A DNA stretch of 64,000 nt from Shinella sp. WSJ-2 (GTDB taxonomy: Bacteria; Pseudomonadota; Alphaproteobacteria; Rhizobiales; Rhizobiaceae): NCBI RefSeq assembly GCF_003432075.1, contig NZ_QWBU01000003.1:434001-498000 (forward strand), read 5' to 3'. The position numbers were made by a program, and so were the translations under genes. Shown piece after piece: positions 1,715 through 63,421 of this stretch (position 1 is its first letter; every line of letters begins with the position of its first letter). The notes beneath the pieces were generated by a model, which was not told where the DNA came from, did no database searches, and saw nothing but the letters and a program-made list of their open reading frames with translations.

Positions 1715-4700
1715 ATGTTCAAGCGAATACAAAAACGCTGGGCGCCGGTGTTCTTCGTGTCGATCGCCGTCGTCGTGTTCAACGCGGGTGCCGCTGAGGC
1801 CAAGCGCGTGGCACTGCTGATAGGCAATCAGAAATACGAAGAGACCGCCCAGCTGAACAATCCCGCCAACGATGTGGAGCTGATGCGCGCGTCGTTCGAG
1901 GCGGCTGGTTTCGACAGCGTGAAGACCGTCTTCGATCTCGATCGCTCCGCCATGGTGAAGGCATTGCGCGATTTCGAGGACGAATCCGTCGATGCGGATA
2001 TGGCGGTGGTCTATTATTCCGGCCATGCCATGGAAATGAACGGGGTCAACTACCTGATACCCGTCGATGCGGCGCTGAAAAGCGACCGCGACGTCGAGGA
2101 TGAAAGTGTCGCCATAGATCGCGTTCAGCGCTCGCTGGAAGGCGCCAAGAAGCTGAAGCTCTTCATCCTCGATGCTTGCCGCAACAATCCGTTCGCGGCC
2201 GCGATGACGCGTTCGATCGGCACCCGTGCCGTGACGCGCGGCCTTGCCCGTGTCGAGCCCGAATCCGCCGACACGCTTATCGCCTTCGCCTCGAAGGCCG
2301 GCACGGTGGCGCTCGACGGCCAGGGCAAGAACAGCCCGTTTGCCACGGCGCTCGCGAAATACCTGACGGAACCCGGTCTCGACGTGCGAATCGCGCTCGG
2401 CAAGGTGCGCGACGAGGTGGTGGAAGCCACCAACCGCGAGCAGGAGCCCTTCGTCTATGGTTCGCTCGGCGGCGCGCAGATCTTCCTGAACATCAAGGAA
2501 GTGAACATCAACGTCACCAACAGCGGCAACACGGAAGTCTCGCCGAACGGCCAGTCCGAAGCGGCGGCCGACTGGCAGAACATCCGCGACCTCGCCGACG
2601 AGGACCTGATCAACGCCTTCATCGCCAAGCACGGCAAGGATCCGGTTTACAAGATGCTGGCGGAGAAGAAGCTCGCCAGCCTCAAGGAAGCCACCCAGAA
2701 CGAGGGTCAGGATGCCGACGGCATTGCCTGGGACGCGCTGAAGGAATCGACCGATGCGGCCGCACTCCAGCGCTTCCTCGAGCGTTATCCCGACAGCAAG
2801 CACCGCAGCGATGCCGAACATCTCATCGCCGCCCTCGAGCCGAAGAAGGGCTTGAGCGTCGACGTCGCCTCGAAGGAAACGCCCGCCTCGCGCGATTGCT
2901 TCCTGCTGGCGGGCGAACCGCAGTCGCTGCCGGGCTTCATGGGCGTCAACTTCCTGAAGATCGATGCCAAGCGGGCGCTCACCGCCTGCGCGCAGGCCGT
3001 CAACGAAAACCCGTCCGACGGCATGCTCGTCAACCTGCTCGGCCGCTCGCATGATGCCGACCGCAACTATGTCGAAGCGCGCCGCAACTACGAAAAGGCC
3101 ATCGAGCTCGGCAACATGTACGCGCTCACCAACCTGGCCTGGTTCTCGATCTACGGCACGGATGGGCCGGTCGATGTGCCGAAGGGCCTGTCGATGTTCG
3201 AGAAGGCCGCGACGGCGGGCAATTCCTACGCCCAGGCCTCGCTCGGCTGGCTCTATCGCGAAGGCTATGGCGGCACGCGCCAGGATTATAACGAAGCCGT
3301 CAAATGGTATCAGCAGTCGGCCAACCAGGGCTATGCGAACGCCATGGCCACGATGGGCTGGTTCTACCGCGAAGGCCTCGGCGTCTCGCAGGATTACGTC
3401 CAGTCGCTGAACTGGTATCGCAAGGCTGCGGATGCCGGCGACGCCAATGCCATGTCCTCGCTTGGCTGGGCCTATCAGAACGGCCTCGGCACGGCGCAGG
3501 ACTATGCCGAAGCCAAGGTCTGGTACGAGAAGGCCGCCAATATGGGCGATTCCTACTCGATGGCCTCGCTTGCCTGGCTTTATGACGTCGGCAACGGCGT
3601 GAAGCAGGACTATGTCGAAGCCCGCTACTGGTATGAGAAGGCGGCCAATGCAGGCAGTTCCTATGCCATGGGCAACCTGTCGCGCCTCTATGACCAGGGG
3701 CTCGGCACGCCGGCAGACGCGAAGGAAGCCGTCCGCTGGGCTGCTGCCGCGGTCGAAAGCGGCGATCCCAACAAGTTGAAAGAGCTAAAGGAAACCCCGG
3801 CCAACTTCACCGTTGCCTTCCGCAAGGAACTGCAGGGCCTCCTGAAGGAGCGCGGCTATTACAGCGGTTCGTCCGACGGCGAATTCGGTGCGGCCACGCT
3901 CGCCGCCATCGACAAGCTCGCCGCCGGCCGCAATGACAGCACCTCGCTGTCGGGTTCCGGTTCGTCGACGGTCACCTCGACCGACCAGTCGACGTCGACG
4001 CTTAGCAGCGGCTCGGATGTCGACCAGTGCTATGAACTGGCGGGCGAACCGAACCTGCGTCCGGGCTTCCTCGGCACGCTCTTCGCCAATATCGACTACG
4101 GTCGTGCGATCTCCGTCTGCGAAGCGGCGCTCAACGCCAATCCGTCGGACAACTCGGTTCGCAACATGCTGGGCCGTGCCTACGATGCCGCGAAGAACTT
4201 CGCCAAGGCACGCGAACACTACCAGAAGGCGGCCGACGAGGGGAACCTCTACGCCCTGACCAACCTGGCCTGGTATTCGATTTACGGCACGGACGGCCCG
4301 GTCGATATGGCCAAGGGCACCCGCATGTTCGAGCAGGCCTCGAATGCCGGCAATCCCTATGCCCAAGCGTCGCTCGGCTGGCTCTATCGCGAAGGCTATA
4401 ATGGCACGCGCAAGGACTATGACGAGGCCTTCAAGTGGTACAGCAAGGCAGCCCAGCAGGGCTATGCCAATGCGCAGGCCACGATGGGCTGGTTCTACCG
4501 CGAAGGCCTCGGCACGCAGCGCGACTACAATGTCTCGCTCGACTGGTACAAGAAGGGCGCGGAAGGCGGCGACGTCAACGCCATGTCCTCGGTCGGCTAT
4601 GCCTATCAGTCCGGTCTCGGCGTTCCCGTCGATTATGTCGAAGCGCGCAACTGGTACGAAAAGGCCGCAGCCCAGAACGACTACTATTCGATGGCCTCGC

Positions 4701-5065
4701 TGGGCTGGCTCTACGACGTCGGCAACGGCGTGACGCAGGACTATGCCCAGGCGATCGACTGGTACGAGAAGGCGGCCAATGGCGGCAATACCTACGCCAT
4801 GGGCAACCTGTCGCGCCTCTACGATCAGGGTCTCGGCACGCGGTCCAATGCACGGGAGGCTGCCCGCTGGGCTGCCGCCAGCGTGGAAGGCGGCGACCAG
4901 GGCAAGCTGCAGGAACTCAAGGGCTCGCCGGCAAACTTCACGCCGCAGTTCCGCAAGGAGTTCCAGCAGATCCTGAAGGATCGCGGCTATTACAGCGGCC
5001 CGATCGACGGCGACTTCGGCACCTCGACGCAGAACGCGATCGATCGCTTGGCCGCCCGCACCTGA
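1715..5065 (+). CDS. Secreted caspase-family protein with duplicated Sel1/peptidoglycan-binding module
   Basis: The product is 1116 residues from the ATG at 1715, which follows CCGGAGGG; the frame stays open upstream, but only this start gives a signal peptide (hydrophobic core about 10-28, AEA before K30). Residues 30-255 form a caspase-like (peptidase C14) domain with the His/Cys pair H104 (SGHAM) and C155 (DACRNN). A spacer follows, then two copies of one module at residues 395-736 and 771-1116. Each has several Sel1 repeats and ends in a peptidoglycan-binding-like segment (RGYYSG..DG.FG). A Ser/Thr-rich linker joins the copies. Related caspase-Sel1 proteins are common in rhizobia but mostly uncharacterised. 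Activity is plausible since both catalytic residues are present; substrates are unknown. Confidence 0.85.
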   Translation: MFKRIQKRWAPVFFVSIAVVVFNAGAAEAKRVALLIGNQKYEETAQLNNPANDVELMRASFEAAGFDSVKTVFDLDRSAMVKALRDFEDESVDADMAVVYYSGHAMEMNGVNYLIPVDAALKSDRDVEDESVAIDRVQRSLEGAKKLKLFILDACRNNPFAAAMTRSIGTRAVTRGLARVEPESADTLIAFASKAGTVALDGQGKNSPFATALAKYLTEPGLDVRIALGKVRDEVVEATNREQEPFVYGSLGGAQIFLNIKEVNINVTNSGNTEVSPNGQSEAAADWQNIRDLADEDLINAFIAKHGKDPVYKMLAEKKLASLKEATQNEGQDADGIAWDALKESTDAAALQRFLERYPDSKHRSDAEHLIAALEPKKGLSVDVASKETPASRDCFLLAGEPQSLPGFMGVNFLKIDAKRALTACAQAVNENPSDGMLVNLLGRSHDADRNYVEARRNYEKAIELGNMYALTNLAWFSIYGTDGPVDVPKGLSMFEKAATAGNSYAQASLGWLYREGYGGTRQDYNEAVKWYQQSANQGYANAMATMGWFYREGLGVSQDYVQSLNWYRKAADAGDANAMSSLGWAYQNGLGTAQDYAEAKVWYEKAANMGDSYSMASLAWLYDVGNGVKQDYVEARYWYEKAANAGSSYAMGNLSRLYDQGLGTPADAKEAVRWAAAAVESGDPNKLKELKETPANFTVAFRKELQGLLKERGYYSGSSDGEFGAATLAAIDKLAAGRNDSTSLSGSGSSTVTSTDQSTSTLSSGSDVDQCYELAGEPNLRPGFLGTLFANIDYGRAISVCEAALNANPSDNSVRNMLGRAYDAAKNFAKAREHYQKAADEGNLYALTNLAWYSIYGTDGPVDMAKGTRMFEQASNAGNPYAQASLGWLYREGYNGTRKDYDEAFKWYSKAAQQGYANAQATMGWFYREGLGTQRDYNVSLDWYKKGAEGGDVNAMSSVGYAYQSGLGVPVDYVEARNWYEKAAAQNDYYSMASLGWLYDVGNGVTQDYAQAIDWYEKAANGGNTYAMGNLSRLYDQGLGTRSNAREAARWAAASVEGGDQGKLQELKGSPANFTPQFRKEFQQILKDRGYYSGPIDGDFGTSTQNAIDRLAART
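2897..5065 (+). repeat. Two-copy internal duplication inside the caspase-Sel1 gene
   Basis: The segment starting at 2897 (CFLLAGEP) recurs at 4028 (CYELAGEP), a shift of 1131 bases or 377 codons. Order and spacing of all Sel1 units and the terminal peptidoglycan-binding-like segment are kept. Several stretches are near identical, such as LYREGY, MGWFYREGLG, LYDVGNGV and YAMGNLSRLYDQGLGT. This is a duplication of a whole module, not just a run of single Sel1 repeats. Confidence 0.85.
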
Positions 5066-5091
5066 TCCCTCCGGACAGGTCTGAAACAGGG

Positions 5092-5131
5092 AACCGCTGG
5101 AAACGATCCGTTTCCAGCGGTTCTTCTTTTT
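5092..5131 (+). terminator. Rho-independent terminator after the caspase-Sel1 gene
   Basis: A perfect 13-bp stem (5092-5104 with 5110-5122, 5-base loop) is followed by a T-rich tract ending at 5131. It lies 26 bases after the stop codon, a textbook terminator for the rightward gene. Confidence 0.92.
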
Positions 5132-5141
5132 CGGGGGCCGG

Positions 5142-5825
5142 TCAGGCGGCTTGCTTCAGCAGCCAGGCATCATGCTGCTCCAAAAATGTTCTGAGGCGTG
5201 CCGGATAGTCTTCGGCAACCGCGTTCTTGACGCTCTGCCGCGTTGAAAGCGCTGCGCGCCAGCGGGCAACCTTAACAAGGCCATCGAAGATGCCGGTCGG
5301 CGCGATCATGTCGAATGTATCGAAGTAGCGGAAGATTGGTGCGAAGACCGCATCGACGAGGCTGAATTTTTCCCCGGCGAAAAACGGTCCGCCGCCAAGG
5401 GCCGCCTCGACGCGCGAAAACTTGTCGATCAGCGCCCTGCGCTTGGCCTCATAGGTCTCGGCGTCCTTCGCCGTCTCGAACCCCCAGAGGTCGCCGAGAA
5501 TCGAGGAACCGAATTCCATCCAGCCGCGATGCTGGGCGCGGGCGAGCGGGTCGGCCGGGTGAAGCGGCGTGCCGGTTTCCGTATCCTCGAGATATTCGCA
5601 GATGACGGCGCTTTCGAAGAGGACGACCTCGCTGCCGTCAGGTTGGCGGACGAGCAAAAGCGGCACCTTGCCGAGCGGCGAAAGAGCGAGGAACCAATCG
5701 GGCTTGGCGGCAAGGTCGATGGTGCGGCGCTCGAAGGGAACGCCCTTTTCGGCAAGCGCGATGGCGGCGCGCTGCACATAGGGGCAGAGATGGTGGCTGA
5801 CGAGGATCAGGCGGGCTTCGTTCAT
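5142..5825 (-). CDS. Glutathione S-transferase family protein
   Basis: This 227-residue protein has the thioredoxin-like N-terminal GST domain with a CPYVQR active-site motif at residues 14-19 and the cis-Pro/glutathione contact regions GKVPLLL and FESAVICEYLED. An all-helical C-terminal domain follows. The active-site Cys puts it closer to omega- or beta-type GSTs than to Tyr/Ser types, so thiol transfer or deglutathionylation is more likely than classical conjugation. The start is supported by AAGGAG eight bases upstream. The DoxX gene lies immediately upstream in the same direction, so the two may share a transcript under the adjacent MarR regulator. Confidence 0.88.
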   Translation of the reverse strand: MNEARLILVSHHLCPYVQRAAIALAEKGVPFERRTIDLAAKPDWFLALSPLGKVPLLLVRQPDGSEVVLFESAVICEYLEDTETGTPLHPADPLARAQHRGWMEFGSSILGDLWGFETAKDAETYEAKRRALIDKFSRVEAALGGGPFFAGEKFSLVDAVFAPIFRYFDTFDMIAPTGIFDGLVKVARWRAALSTRQSVKNAVAEDYPARLRTFLEQHDAWLLKQAA

Positions 5826-5845
5826 GGGATATCTCCTTGGATGTA

Positions 5846-6268
5846 TCAGCGCAGGCGGCGCGAAGGGCTGAGGGCATAATGTCCGTCGCCAAGCAGGGCC
5901 TGCGCGACGGAAAGCACGATGAGGTAAAGCGGATACTCCCAGCCGCCGCCGGGGGCGGTGAACACCCAGCCATTGGCGCCGTGCGCCCAGATGATGGCGC
6001 CTGCCAGGGCGGGGATGAGTGCCAGCGCCACCCAGCGGGCCTGAATGCCGAGCACCAGCATGACCCCGCCCGCCGCCTCGGCGGCGAAGGTCAGATAGGC
6101 GAGCCAGCCGGGCAGGCCGATGGAGGTGAAATAACCCGCCGTTCCGGCAAGGCCGAAGGTCAGCAGTTTCAGGACGACACTATGGGCGAGATACATCACG
6201 CCAAGGCTGACGCGCAGCAGGGTGACGCCGTAATCGGTAAAGTCGGTTCGGGTCTGGGAAAGGGGCAT
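5846..6268 (-). CDS. DoxX family inner-membrane protein
   Basis: This 140-residue protein has about four hydrophobic segments and the DoxX features LLRVSLGVMYLAHS near the N terminus and GGVMLVLGIQARW in the middle. DoxX proteins are small quinone-linked or redox-associated membrane proteins; some work with sulfur or oxidative stress systems, but the role of this one is open. It is divergent from a MarR regulator across an 80-base region holding two palindromes, and lies 20 bases upstream of the GST gene on the same strand. This suggests a small redox- or electrophile-responsive unit (inference). Confidence 0.85.
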   Translation of the reverse strand: MPLSQTRTDFTDYGVTLLRVSLGVMYLAHSVVLKLLTFGLAGTAGYFTSIGLPGWLAYLTFAAEAAGGVMLVLGIQARWVALALIPALAGAIIWAHGANGWVFTAPGGGWEYPLYLIVLSVAQALLGDGHYALSPSRRLR

Positions 6269-59358: not shown

Positions 59359-60303
59359 ATGGCCGACGCAAATTCCACCAGCGCGCCTCAGACAGGCGAT
59401 TCGCCGCGCGGTTTCGCCTTCGCGCTGACGGCTTACGTGCTCTGGGGCTTCCTGCCTTTCTTCATGAAAGCGGTCGCCCATATTCCGGCTTCCGAGGTCG
59501 TCGCGCACCGTATCGTCTGGTCGGTGCCGCTAGCCGGCCTCGTGCTCATCTGGCTCGGCCGCACGTCGGAGATCAAGGTAGCGCTGCGTTCGCCGCGCAT
59601 GCTGGCCATGGCAACGCTGACGGCCACGCTCATCACGATCAACTGGGGCATCTATGTCTGGGCGATCGGCGCCGGCCGCGCTATCGAGACGGCACTCGGC
59701 TACTACATCAACCCGCTGTTCTCAATCTTCCTCGGTGCTGTTCTCCTGAAGGAGAAGCTGGACCGCGCGCAGATCGCGGCAATCGCGCTCGCCGCCATTG
59801 CCGTTGCCATCCTTGCCTTCGATGCGGGCGGCCTGCCTTGGGTGTCGCTTAGCCTTTGCATCTCCTGGGGCTTTTACGCCTTCTGCCGCAAGGCATTGCC
59901 GATCGGTCCCAACCAGGGCTTCTTCCTGGAGGTTCTGATCCTCAGCGTGCCAGCGATCGGCTACATCATCTGGCTGGAATCGACGGGGCAGGGCCATTTC
60001 GGCGATACGGGCATGGCGGACGTGTTGTGGCTGCTCTCATGCGGTCTCGTAACCGCAGTTCCGCTGATGATATATGCCAATGGCGCCAAGCTACTTCGGC
60101 TTTCCACCATTGGCATCATGCAATATATCGCGCCGACGATGATCTTCATCATCGCGGTCTTCGCCTTCGGCGAACCCTTCGGCACGACCAAGCTCATCGC
60201 CTTCGTCTTCATCTGGGCCGCCCTCTTCATCTATTCCGGCTCGATGCTGCGCAGCGCCCGTGCCCGCCGCATGGCGGCCGCCGAGCTGAAGCCGGCGGAA
60301 TAG
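59359..60303 (+). CDS. rarD: RarD-type EamA/DMT transporter
   Basis: This 314-residue protein has ten hydrophobic segments in two EamA repeats. The RarD landmarks are GFAFALTAYVLWGFLPFFMKAVAHIPASEVVAHRIVWSVP, NWGIYVWAIGAGRAIETALGYYINPL and PLMIYANGAKLLRLSTIGIMQYIAPT. RarD was linked to chloramphenicol sensitivity; substrates are unknown. It stops three bases from the convergent ion-channel gene. Confidence 0.92.
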   Translation: MADANSTSAPQTGDSPRGFAFALTAYVLWGFLPFFMKAVAHIPASEVVAHRIVWSVPLAGLVLIWLGRTSEIKVALRSPRMLAMATLTATLITINWGIYVWAIGAGRAIETALGYYINPLFSIFLGAVLLKEKLDRAQIAAIALAAIAVAILAFDAGGLPWVSLSLCISWGFYAFCRKALPIGPNQGFFLEVLILSVPAIGYIIWLESTGQGHFGDTGMADVLWLLSCGLVTAVPLMIYANGAKLLRLSTIGIMQYIAPTMIFIIAVFAFGEPFGTTKLIAFVFIWAALFIYSGSMLRSARARRMAAAELKPAE

Positions 60304-60306
60304 GCG

Positions 60307-61365
60307 TCAGCTCAGTGAGCGCAGGATCGTGCAGACGCAGACCGTGGTGAAGATCGCGGGAAGCGCGTAACGTGCATAGGCGCGCAGCTCGCCCGTCAGG
60401 GCCGGGTTGCGTGTCGCTCCGGGCAAGCGCCCGCTTTCCAGCACGAGATCCACCAGAAGCACGAAGATCAGGTAGAAATAGCCAAGCGAGATCATGAAGG
60501 CGATCGGCGAATTGACCGACATGCTTCCGGGAAAACTCGCCTCGAAGGTGAAGCTCAGCGCCGCCAGCGCCAGAAGCGCGCTGTAGGTGATGCCGATCGT
60601 ATCGGAAATCGTGCCTCTCGGCGTCCAGAGGATGAAAAGCGACACGGTGAGCACCGCCACGAAGGGCACGAAGATACGCAGGAAATAGCGTGGCCAGGCG
60701 CGTTCGACGGTCAATACGGCCTTCGTCCGCATGAACGGGCGCGCATTCCAGCCATAGAAGGTTTCCACGGCGAAGCGCAGCGAGGTTGCGGTCCAGTCCG
60801 ATGCGGTCAGGCGTTCGCCGTAGCTGGAGAGTTCGCGGTCCCGGTCGTCGACCACGAAAATCACCTCATCCGTGGAGTGGCGTTGCGACACGAAGGGGAA
60901 GGTCAGCATTTGCCGGTCGAATGGAAAGGCCGAGAGATCGACGGTGATCCGGAAATCCGCATCGAAGCGCTGGATCAGCACGACGCGCCCATCGGCGAAG
61001 ATCGACAGCGCCGTGGTTTGCGCCCGCGGATCGCTGATCCTGTTTTCCAGCGAAATGTCCGGCGTCCAGATCCGGTCGATCTCCTTCGCCGCATCGTCGC
61101 CGGTGAAATCGCGGCGGGCAGAGCCGAATTTTATCGGATCGAAGGCAAGGGTCGGGTCGCGCCAGCGCGCGGTATATTCAAGCGAGGCCGCGGTCTCGCC
61201 CGATGTCTCGGCGATCTTCACGATATCGATGACGCGCAGCGCCAGATTGACCCGGACGGGCAGCGACATGCCCGCCGACATATCGGTCTGCGCCCATGCG
61301 GGAGAGGCGGCGAGGCTGGCGACGAGAAGCATTACCGCGCCAAGAAGCGTTGCTATGCGTCTCAC
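60307..61365 (-). CDS. Prokaryotic pentameric ligand-gated ion channel
   Basis: This 352-residue protein has a signal peptide (1-25, AWA). Its beta-rich extracellular domain carries the family marks W100-T-P-D103 and the Pro-loop FPFD at 147-150, without the flanking Cys pair of animal receptors. Four membrane helices follow: M1 about 227-247, M2 252-274 (pore lining), M3 286-309 and M4 330-350, with a short M3-M4 loop as in GLIC and ELIC. The start codon lies in the stop of a Cache sensor gene (ATGA, 61362-61365), so the two are translationally coupled. Ligand and ion selectivity are unknown. Confidence 0.92.
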   Translation of the reverse strand: MRRIATLLGAVMLLVASLAASPAWAQTDMSAGMSLPVRVNLALRVIDIVKIAETSGETAASLEYTARWRDPTLAFDPIKFGSARRDFTGDDAAKEIDRIWTPDISLENRISDPRAQTTALSIFADGRVVLIQRFDADFRITVDLSAFPFDRQMLTFPFVSQRHSTDEVIFVVDDRDRELSSYGERLTASDWTATSLRFAVETFYGWNARPFMRTKAVLTVERAWPRYFLRIFVPFVAVLTVSLFILWTPRGTISDTIGITYSALLALAALSFTFEASFPGSMSVNSPIAFMISLGYFYLIFVLLVDLVLESGRLPGATRNPALTGELRAYARYALPAIFTTVCVCTILRSLS

Positions 61366-62444
61366 GACGGCTGCTCCAGGTTTTTCTGCGCAACGACGGC
61401 CTTTTGCAGGGCAAGAAATTCCGGCAGGCTCGACAGGGTCTCGGTCTCATCGGCCGTGTTGGCTTTCACCTGCTCCGTCAGGGTCTCCAGCGGGCGCAGC
61501 ACGAGGCTGCGCAGCGTCACCATGATCAGCGAGAAGGTGATGAGAAAGCCGACGATGACCACGGCGGCGATGGTGACGAGCGAGCGCGACAGATGCCCTT
61601 CCAGGCCGGTGAAATCACGCGTGACGACGATGGTGCCGATTATGCGGCCGCTGAAATCGAGCAGGGGGCGCCCCATGATCCCGAGCGTGCGTCCGTCGAC
61701 CCTCACCTTGTCCAGATAGGCGGCGCGCGACAGCCGGATGCTGCCGGTCTGCTGGAGGGCCTGGAAGAGGCCGGCATCGGTTGCCGCTTCGATCTTCAGG
61801 CCGGTCTCCGGGCTCGGTTCGCCCTTGTCGGTGATGCCGGCGGCGGCATCGAGAAAGAAGGCATAGTCGGCGCCGGTTGCCGCCTTCGACAGTTCGGTCA
61901 GCGATTTGAGGTCGACACCCACCTCGATGGTCCCGATCAGGTTTTCTTCGTCCACGACGGCCGAGACGGCGCGCAGGCTGAGGCCCCGCACGCCTAGTTC
62001 CAGCCCCTTGCGCACCCGCCGGTCATGGTTGGCGGCAACAATCATGGGACGGAAGCGTGACAGATCCTGGCCGAAATTCTCGGGCTCCCAGACACGCAGG
62101 AAGGAATGCATGTCCGCACTGTGGAAATGCAGGACATCCACGCCGCCAAGTTCACGCAACCGCTCGAAAACCGGCTTGGCATAGGCCTGAAGTCCGGCGC
62201 GGTCGCCGGCCTTGAGACGCATGATGATCGCGGGATCGCGGGCAAGGCCTTCTGCGTGGGTGGCCGAGAGTGTGGCGGCCTGATCCATGGCGGTGGAAAG
62301 AACGAGGCTCGTGGCGTCGATCTCCTGTTCTTCAGCCTGTGTCAGCAGGGCGCGCGTATCCAGTTGCAGCACCCATCCGCCGACGCAGAGCGTCAACGCA
62401 AGCGTAGCGGCCGCGACGAGCGAAAGTGTTTTGTCGAGTGTCAT
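61362..62444 (-). CDS. dCache-type membrane sensor without output domain
   Basis: The ATG at 62444 gives 360 residues. There is a membrane helix at about 6-27, a periplasmic domain of about 260 residues resembling double Cache type 3 (SFLRVWEPENFGQDLSRFRPMI, KGLELGVRGLSLRAV, LIGTIEVG), a second helix at about 289-310 and a HAMP-like helix pair to the end (RPLETLTEQVKA). No kinase, methyl-accepting, GGDEF or cyclase domain follows; the gene simply ends in the channel start codon. It probably passes ligand state to the channel or another partner. Frame upstream to 62489 adds 15 residues. The start lacks a strong ribosome binding site. Confidence 0.85.
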   Translation of the reverse strand: MTLDKTLSLVAAATLALTLCVGGWVLQLDTRALLTQAEEQEIDATSLVLSTAMDQAATLSATHAEGLARDPAIIMRLKAGDRAGLQAYAKPVFERLRELGGVDVLHFHSADMHSFLRVWEPENFGQDLSRFRPMIVAANHDRRVRKGLELGVRGLSLRAVSAVVDEENLIGTIEVGVDLKSLTELSKAATGADYAFFLDAAAGITDKGEPSPETGLKIEAATDAGLFQALQQTGSIRLSRAAYLDKVRVDGRTLGIMGRPLLDFSGRIIGTIVVTRDFTGLEGHLSRSLVTIAAVVIVGFLITFSLIMVTLRSLVLRPLETLTEQVKANTADETETLSSLPEFLALQKAVVAQKNLEQPS

Positions 62445-62583: not shown

Positions 62584-62613
62584 AAAAAGCGGAGCGCTGC
62601 GATAGCGCTCCGC
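62584..62613 (-). terminator. Rho-independent terminator of the LOG gene
   Basis: On the minus strand a perfect 10-bp stem (GCGGAGCGCT / AGCGCTCCGC, 5-base loop) is followed by five Ts, about 28 bases after the LOG stop. It separates that gene from the sensor-channel operon. Confidence 0.9.
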
Positions 62614-62640
62614 TCAGGCCTTTTCAAATGACAGGCACGC

Positions 62641-63261
62641 CTAGAGACGGGCGATGATTTCCGATTCGCCCTCGCGGTCCACTTCGCTGGCCCAATGGTT
62701 CAGAAGCGCTGCGACGATCTCGTCGGGGTCGTCGATGACGAGCGGTTGGACGAGATGGGCGGTGTGGATGAAGCCTTCGTCGGCCATGTGGCGGATGAGC
62801 TTCAGCATGGGATCCCAGAAGCCGCCGATATTGGCGAAAACCATCGGTTTGCGGTGGCGGCCGAGCTGCGCCCAGGTCATCACCTCGACGATCTCTTCCA
62901 GGGTGCCGATGCCGCCCGGCAGCGCCACGAAGGCATCGGCGCGATCGAACATCTTGTGTTTACGCTCATGCATGTCGGGCGTGATGATCAGCTCGCTGAG
63001 CTGCCCGAGGGAATGACGGGTGGCCTCCATATCCACGAGGAATTGCGGTATAATGCCGGTGACGCGCCCGCCATGCGAGAGCACGCCGCTGGCGACGGCG
63101 CCCATGATGCCTTTGGTGCCGCCACCATAGACGAGGCGCAGGTGATTTTCCGCCATCGCCTTGCCGAGGCTTCGCCCGGCATTGATGTAGGCAGAATCAC
63201 GTCCGGGCTGGGAGCCGCAATAGACGCAGACGGATCGAATCGGAAGATTTTGTTCGCTCAT
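62641..63261 (-). CDS. LOG family protein (putative cytokinin riboside phosphate phosphoribohydrolase)
   Basis: The ATG at 63261 gives 206 residues. The Rossmann-like fold carries VCVYCGSQPGRD, YGGGTKGIMG, ERKHKMF and the signature PGGIGTLEE. LOG enzymes release free cytokinin-type bases from nucleoside monophosphates; in bacteria many act as general nucleotide phosphoribohydrolases. A plant-associated host would make cytokinin activation meaningful, but activity is inferred. An upstream extension of 41 residues is open but lacks support. Confidence 0.9.
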   Translation of the reverse strand: MSEQNLPIRSVCVYCGSQPGRDSAYINAGRSLGKAMAENHLRLVYGGGTKGIMGAVASGVLSHGGRVTGIIPQFLVDMEATRHSLGQLSELIITPDMHERKHKMFDRADAFVALPGGIGTLEEIVEVMTWAQLGRHRKPMVFANIGGFWDPMLKLIRHMADEGFIHTAHLVQPLVIDDPDEIVAALLNHWASEVDREGESEIIARL

Positions 63262-63421
63262 GGCGGGATTCAGCCACCCGCCCGGATGCCCGTCAAGGAT
63301 AATGACGGAAAAAGAGAGGGTCTGACACCCCGGAATGTCCCCGAAAGCTTGTGGAAGGCATTGGGAATCGATAGCAATTTCCACAGGGGACTCCCGGGAA
63401 ACCGGGACAGAGAGAGATTAG

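Follow-up and report, generated by a model that had tools for sequence, protein, structure and literature searches.

To our knowledge, the cellular role of the bacterial relatives of nerve receptors is largely open. At the locus described here, the gene of such a predicted channel overlaps that of a predicted solute sensor without an output domain. Both genes are located on the minus strand of a 64,000-nucleotide stretch of DNA (hereafter the window). The sensor gene (61362-62444) codes for a protein of 360 aa consisting of a transmembrane (TM) helix, a dCache_3 double Cache, a second TM helix and a short tail, and the channel gene (60307-61365) codes for a predicted pentameric ligand-gated ion channel subunit of 352 aa. 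Both frames are open at these coordinates, and their matches to dCache_3 and Neur_chan_LBD bear out the two leftward, overlapping genes described in the first-pass annotation. The overlap at 61362-61365 (minus strand), where the sensor stop meets the channel start, is indeed four bases long. However, it reads GTGA in the sequence and not ATGA as had been stated, and the start codon of the channel within it is GTG.

The surroundings of the pair also largely agree with the earlier description. The convergent gene is present as an EamA-family gene in the Pfam scan (59359-60303), ending three bases short of the channel's end, while the name rarD comes only from the first-pass annotation. A terminator claimed at 62584-62613 is represented in our scan by a terminator-like stem-loop of 12 pairs at 62587-62615 on the minus strand, and eight such terminator-like sites were found in the window against 2.8 in shuffles. 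The stem-loop lies between the sensor and a LOG-type gene (lysine decarboxylase-like family, 62641-63384) on the 5' side of the pair. The promoter scan gave no site, against 0.6 in shuffles.

The channel protein matches Neur_chan_LBD with an E-value of 1.6e-19 (70.6 bits, cut-off 26). Its signal-peptide-like start (residues 1-26; 61288-61365, minus strand), delimited by eye from the sequence, is followed by an extracellular domain (residues 37-222; 60700-61257, minus strand) carrying an FPFD Pro-loop at residues 147-150; the WTPD motif is also present. The AlphaFold2 model, built on an alignment of 60 sequences (mean pLDDT 90.4), has four long C-terminal helices at residues 225-247, 256-277, 287-311 and 322-351, which are assigned to M1-M4 (residues 225-351; 60313-60693, minus strand). 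Among solved structures the best profile match is to chains of the proton-gated channel GLIC (5e-31), and Foldseek superposes the model on GLIC with a TM score of 0.84 by target and an E-value of about 3e-22; GABA-A receptors, DeCLIC, glycine receptors and sTeLIC are matched as well. The Pfam model of the channel membrane part has no match at E<=1, although the GLIC fold match spans that part. By domain, Pro-loop, helices and modelled GLIC fold, the protein is a predicted pentameric ligand-gated ion channel, in keeping with the complete GLIC/ELIC-type channel proposed earlier.

The sensor matches dCache_3 with an E-value of 2e-26 (93.5 bits, cut-off 25.7), and its AlphaFold2 model (alignment of 60 sequences, mean pLDDT 91.7) shows two Cache subdomains flanked by long helices, the second of which leads into a short tail. 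TM1 (residues ~6-30; 62355-62429, minus strand) is a hydrophobic stretch within a helix that spans residues 2-68 of the model, and TM2 (residues ~289-313, including G299; 61506-61580, minus strand) lies within the helix of residues 279-327, the bounds of both being set by eye. Between them are the membrane-distal Cache subdomain (residues 69-178; 61911-62240, minus strand) and the membrane-proximal one (residues 179-278; 61611-61910, minus strand). The cytoplasmic tail (residues 314-360; 61365-61505, minus strand) is partly helical in the model and nearly missing in half of the relatives. The architecture of helix, double Cache and helix without output thus stands as first described; however, the tail, which had been called HAMP-like, has no HAMP match at E<=1 in Pfam.

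The same holds for the family. All 60 members of the sensor alignment contain the dCache_3 domain, none matches HAMP at E<=1e-3, and the MCP signalling domain is missing from the window sensor and from all 60. After TM2 there are 5-17 residues in 30 of the 60 sensors and 47-63 in the other 30, with no output domain in any (0/60); a sensor frame running on into such a domain in relatives had been put forward as evidence that would speak against the first-pass reading. With just 5-17 residues following TM2 in half of the sensors, signal relay through the cytoplasm is not common to them all. Three other Pfam families were each matched by one sensor of the 60, just under an E-value of 1e-3, and we took these matches as chance.

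Is the pair of genes more than a chance neighbourhood? Within the window's own genome each protein has one further match, and the two matches are again adjacent and in the same order, about 153 kb off on the same contig, with 34% (sensor) and 26% (channel) identity to the window pair; one other genome, G065, also has two pairs. Among 297 genomes of the window's order, the channel family occurs in 19, with 23 channels in total. Eleven of these channels (9 genomes) have a dCache_3 sensor directly upstream, and the other 12, which have no sensor within 1.5 kb, show the lowest scores against the linked channels. The scores separate cleanly: linked channels reach at least 290 bits in all surveys taken together (at least 416 in the order), whereas unlinked ones reach at most 126. 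A survey of 398 genomes of the phylum found the channel family in 7, with 9 channels; pairs are present in the window's genome, G327 and G567, and the other five channels are unlinked. In the order of G327 (48 genomes), 9 genomes have a channel match at E<=1e-8, of which one is linked.

A named genome collection was further scanned with the 11 linked channels, and 60 of the 131 matched stretches encode a relative. At all 60 loci the sensor immediately precedes the channel on the same strand, in a separate frame at 59 of them and in one frame with the channel at L086; the query alignment consisted of linked channels only, and this count is therefore biased towards the linked clade. The co-occurrence in the same order that the first-pass annotation had proposed as a test is thus seen at 60 of 60 loci and for 11 of the 23 channels of the order, from which the remaining 12 are distant. 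Close channel relatives lacking the sensor, which would have counted against that annotation, are not found among the 60 loci. According to their titles the hosts are mostly Hyphomicrobiales, together with two Reyranella, one Acidovorax, one uncultured delta-proteobacterium and a few unplaced bins, and the pair is retained down to 24% identity to the window's proteins.

The two genes overlap or nearly do so throughout. In all 59 separate pairs a channel start codon lies -41 to +20 bases from the sensor stop; a four-base overlap is possible in 45 of the 59 and a one-base overlap in 5 more. No flanking gene family, counted as stop-to-stop frames of at least 150 residues in flanks of up to 5 kb, is common to more than 12 of the 59 loci. 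The adjacency is therefore not mere synteny, which we rule out, and the pair looks like a free-standing two-gene unit. L086, which we left out of the gap counts, the flank count and alignments A3 and A4, is an observation apart: in this Shinella sp. CPCC 101442 locus (3753-6014) a single open frame of 754 residues covers both sensor and channel. A small indel shortly ahead of the sensor end sets the locus apart from its near twin L085; the frame may be a real fusion or an assembly error, and we give it no weight as evidence.

Carriage of the channel by plasmids or viruses was rejected on the collections searched, as none of 72,556 plasmid records matched the channel at E<=1e-5 and none of 110 pattern matches in viral contigs was confirmed. 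The sensor has five weak matches (H1-H5) among the plasmid records, all below 60% identity. H2 and H5 are annotated as chemotaxis proteins, and the two strongest, H3 and H4, lie in frames of 655 and 665 residues; from these lengths they are not output-less.

In the channel tree (93 rows), the 73 linked channels are separated from the 20 unlinked ones by a single change on one branch with a support of 100. This tree and the partner trees were built with a quick method, gave long-branch warnings and are unrooted. Nineteen loci were omitted from the channel tree as repeats of others or, for L123, as incomplete, and the 73 linked rows include 5 identical twins from two collections, leaving 68 different ones. 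Partner trees of the 73 sensors and 73 channels contain 34 and 36 strong splits with no conflict between them, and the distances of the partners correlate at 0.96 (Spearman) and 0.79 (Pearson); such congruence shows joint inheritance, not binding. The channel of the second pair in the window's genome groups with two Shinella channels on short branches, and the window's clade includes three pairs from Rhodopseudomonas (L054, L056 and L065). The 60 of 60 loci, the linkage counts of sensors and channels in the order and the single change in the channel tree indicate that the pairing is more than chance. The pair itself is real and well conserved, and very probably forms one functional system.

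The origin of the sensor half can be approached from the other direction. Searching the 297 genomes of the order with a sensor profile (E<=1e-20, six candidates scored per genome) gave at least 68 matches, 11 above 400 bits and 57 below 200, a gap widened by the fact that the profile was built from linked sensors. All 11 of the high-scoring sensors adjoin a channel. Of the 57 lower-scoring matches, 55 lie in open frames of 583-797 residues and the two shorter ones (288 and 221) at contig ends; none of the 21 that we examined has a channel within 1.5 kb. Ten of these 21 were scanned with Pfam, and all ten have the order dCache_3-HAMP-MCPsignal. The sensor tree separates the 73 sensors from the 21 full-length relatives on one branch with a support of 99. 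By their domains, the next relatives of the sensor look like chemoreceptors, and it is likely that the input half of a chemoreceptor was joined to a GLIC-type channel in a single event and that the two have stayed together since.

In the sensor, R117, D127, R132, G147, G154, E174, G176 and K187 are identical in all 60 sensors, and R158 is found in 57, with F in the other three. Eight residues of the distal Cache (R82, R117, D127, R132, N139, E149, R158 and E174) are conserved both in linked sensors and in the chemoreceptor relatives; G147, G154 and G176 are also common to the latter, but K187 is not. Since the invariant residues are shared in this way, the class of solute is probably the same for the linked sensors and their chemoreceptor relatives.

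What this solute might be is suggested by structural comparison. The top crystal structures in Foldseek are double-Cache proteins such as succinate-bound DctB and amino acid chemoreceptors, with rmsd values of 5-9. The single Cache of the histidine kinase CitA (1p0z) appears at rank 41, with an rmsd of 1.7 over 126 columns that presumably correspond to the distal subdomain. Given this good superposition and the arginines, an organic acid anion is our first guess for the putative ligand. However, DctB and the amino acid receptors outrank CitA by fold, so that the ligand class is not fixed by the fold, and only one pocket arginine of CitA is aligned, with R158 and through weak alignments (E 0.02-0.05).

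A different set of residues separates the linked sensors from the chemoreceptors. Eleven positions are conserved in channel-linked sensors and not in chemoreceptor relatives: five in the proximal Cache (T222, L226, F227, R240 and L261), three in the distal Cache (P133, M134 and Q145, the last being R in the window sensor), E65 in the first helix, R287 just before TM2 and G299 in TM2. T222, L226, F227, R240, L261, R287 and G299 are the first candidates for contact with the channel, though P133, M134, Q145 and E65 mean that the set does not all point to a contact near the membrane. Mean conservation of the TM helices is only slightly higher in linked sensors than in chemoreceptors (1.33 against 1.26 for TM1; 1.60 against 1.38 for TM2), and the 68 different sensors have an effective weight of only about 39. 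In the channel, the residues specific to linked members occupy many positions over the whole chain with no single patch, and we base no conclusion on them; six distant channels were left out of this comparison.

We consider it rather probable, from the sequences and their distribution, that the two genes form one sensory ion-channel system in which the sensor is an auxiliary subunit acting on the predicted channel. The sensor would correspond to a dCache_3 chemoreceptor reduced to its input half, a double Cache between two membrane helices, with neither HAMP domain nor signalling rod; it would be co-produced with the channel and most likely be seated beside it. The pocket of the membrane-distal Cache would bind a small solute, which may be a carboxylate such as an organic acid anion or an amino acid. 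The proximal Cache and TM2 would then shift slightly, as is usual, and this movement would act on the adjacent channel through its periplasmic domain or its membrane helices and so change its open probability, and with it the flow of ions. TM2 of CitA is drawn in a piston-like movement when the ligand binds (PMC11754779), and a similar movement of TM2 next to a channel could gate it. Because half of the 60 sensors end within 17 residues after TM2, the signal most likely goes sideways, from sensor to channel. With the tails short in half of the sensors and neither HAMP nor output domain in any, action on the adjacent channel is the simplest reading, and a direct gating mechanism appears likely.

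Other roles for the sensor have to be weighed against this one. It might help the channel to assemble, fold or reach the membrane, with a Cache that takes no part in gating, and such a helper would equally produce obligate pairing, overlapping genes and the absence of an output domain. We regard it as unlikely, since the chemoreceptor pocket residues (R117, D127, R132 and E174 in 60 of 60 sensors, R158 in 57) are kept where a pure helper would not need them, and since unlinked relatives of the channel exist without any sensor. Slightly less likely again is that the sensor catches or concentrates a periplasmic solute, which then binds at the channel's own ligand site. This was suggested in the passage of Tasneem et al. 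that treats such genes (PMC549065), and some other channels adjoin, or appear fused to, solute-binding proteins; however, the modelled sensor is anchored by two membrane helices and is a receptor domain and no free carrier, and linked-specific residues are also found at or near TM2.

In another reading, the sensor passes its signal to some other protein in the cytoplasm, for instance as the partner of a full-length chemoreceptor, and the channel is only co-expressed. This would suit the sensor's close relatives (chemoreceptors in all ten scanned) and the half of the sensors with a tail of 47-63 residues. The other half, with 5-17 residues and no domain after TM2, does not fit, and the gene kept alongside is the channel at 60 of 60 loci, with no third gene at more than 12 of 59, so that we find this improbable. 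The sensor is about half as long as a chemoreceptor, as a broken chemoreceptor or a sequencing error beside a channel would be. As all 60 alignment members end without an output domain and the pair is retained to 24% identity, truncation and sequencing error are excluded, and we give an artefact practically no weight.

Action of the sensor on the channel, the reading we prefer, also has a wider form, to which we give an even chance: the pair would be a widespread natural two-protein receptor, in which the input half of a chemoreceptor, parted from its signalling rod perhaps once, has become the obligate auxiliary subunit of a nicotinic-type channel and gates it by way of the periplasm or the membrane. 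If this is true, the flagellar motor and the membrane potential are alternative outputs of the same kind of solute sensor. The presence of an obligate solute sensor next to a channel points to the likely binding place of the natural ligand, and the two proteins lend themselves to expression as a simple pair. Should the sensor gate the channel, it would be a bacterial counterpart of the auxiliary subunits known from animal channels and an example of how a chemoreceptor's input can come to have an electrical output.

Novelty of the two-protein form, which the first-pass annotation had assumed in stating that no such system was described, does not hold. The pertinent section of Tasneem et al. 2004 (PMC549065) already gives a predicted operon of a channel gene (ART-LGIC) and a stand-alone Cache gene in Rhodopseudomonas and suggests that the two proteins cooperate. 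These are the same two kinds of gene as in the window, again in one predicted operon; our comparison rests on the pairs of L054, L056 and L065, not on the strain of the 2004 paper itself. However, that section concerns one bacterium and does not give the Cache family, the extent, the gene overlap or the chemoreceptor origin. The two-protein form is therefore already in print as a prediction, while its extent, the obligate pairing and the chemoreceptor kinship come from the present analysis, and the first-pass reading as a whole is partly supported. In the parts concerned, neither an ion channel nor a solved dCache_3 structure is listed in a survey of Cache domains from 2016 (PMC4822843), and by term search the word Cache is not in the main text of a 2016 channel survey (PMC4795631). 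No experiment on such a channel-sensor pair was among the matches listed in the literature searched, which covers few subscription papers.

The window channel shares its fold with GLIC at 19-20% identity in structural alignments, but GLIC is alone in the solved entries. DeCLIC, whose core fold is matched at 21-22% identity, has an extra periplasmic part like the present system; however, the part of its description that deals with this region (PMC9897478) makes it two jelly-roll lobes in the same chain, whereas in the window it is a Cache protein in a separate chain. An extra domain in the channel's own chain, as in DeCLIC, is not seen in the window or at 59 of the 60 loci, where the frames are separate, L086 alone having one frame. 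Chemoreceptors of the dCache_3-HAMP-MCPsignal type have the same input half and pocket residues as the window sensor, which in contrast has no HAMP or signalling domain and is followed by a channel gene instead. The alpha2-delta subunit of animal voltage-gated calcium channels is also a Cache-bearing regulatory channel subunit. It belongs with a different channel family; the same parallel is drawn for fused bacterial forms in the corresponding passage of the 2004 paper (PMC549065).

The unlinked channels keep other company. A Pfam scan covered ten frames next to the channel at 9 of the 20 unlinked loci, and eight of these frames are enzymes, transport or unknown proteins. At L121/L134 (G305), a distant channel is followed on the same strand by a gene for a phosphonate-type periplasmic binding protein, and at L022 a dCache_1 protein, another Cache type, lies downstream of the channel. 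The unlinked channels of L128, L130, L131 and L132 have a long N-terminal part in the same chain whose sequence resembles a type I periplasmic binding protein. These neighbours and apparent fusions fit themes listed in the relevant part of the 2004 paper (PMC549065). At L133 (1944-6950, G149), a distant channel lies between a PLP-dependent decarboxylase and a 462-residue protein with a Cache-like start, and the gene after the latter reads, by eye, like a transporter; judged from these gene types, the cluster could make and sense an amine. At L006 (518-1189), a carbonic-anhydrase-like gene is located just upstream of the unlinked channel on the same strand. In Rhodomicrobium (L088, 4557-6005), a proline-rich stretch of ~100 residues is present between the signal peptide and the ligand-binding domain of the channel.
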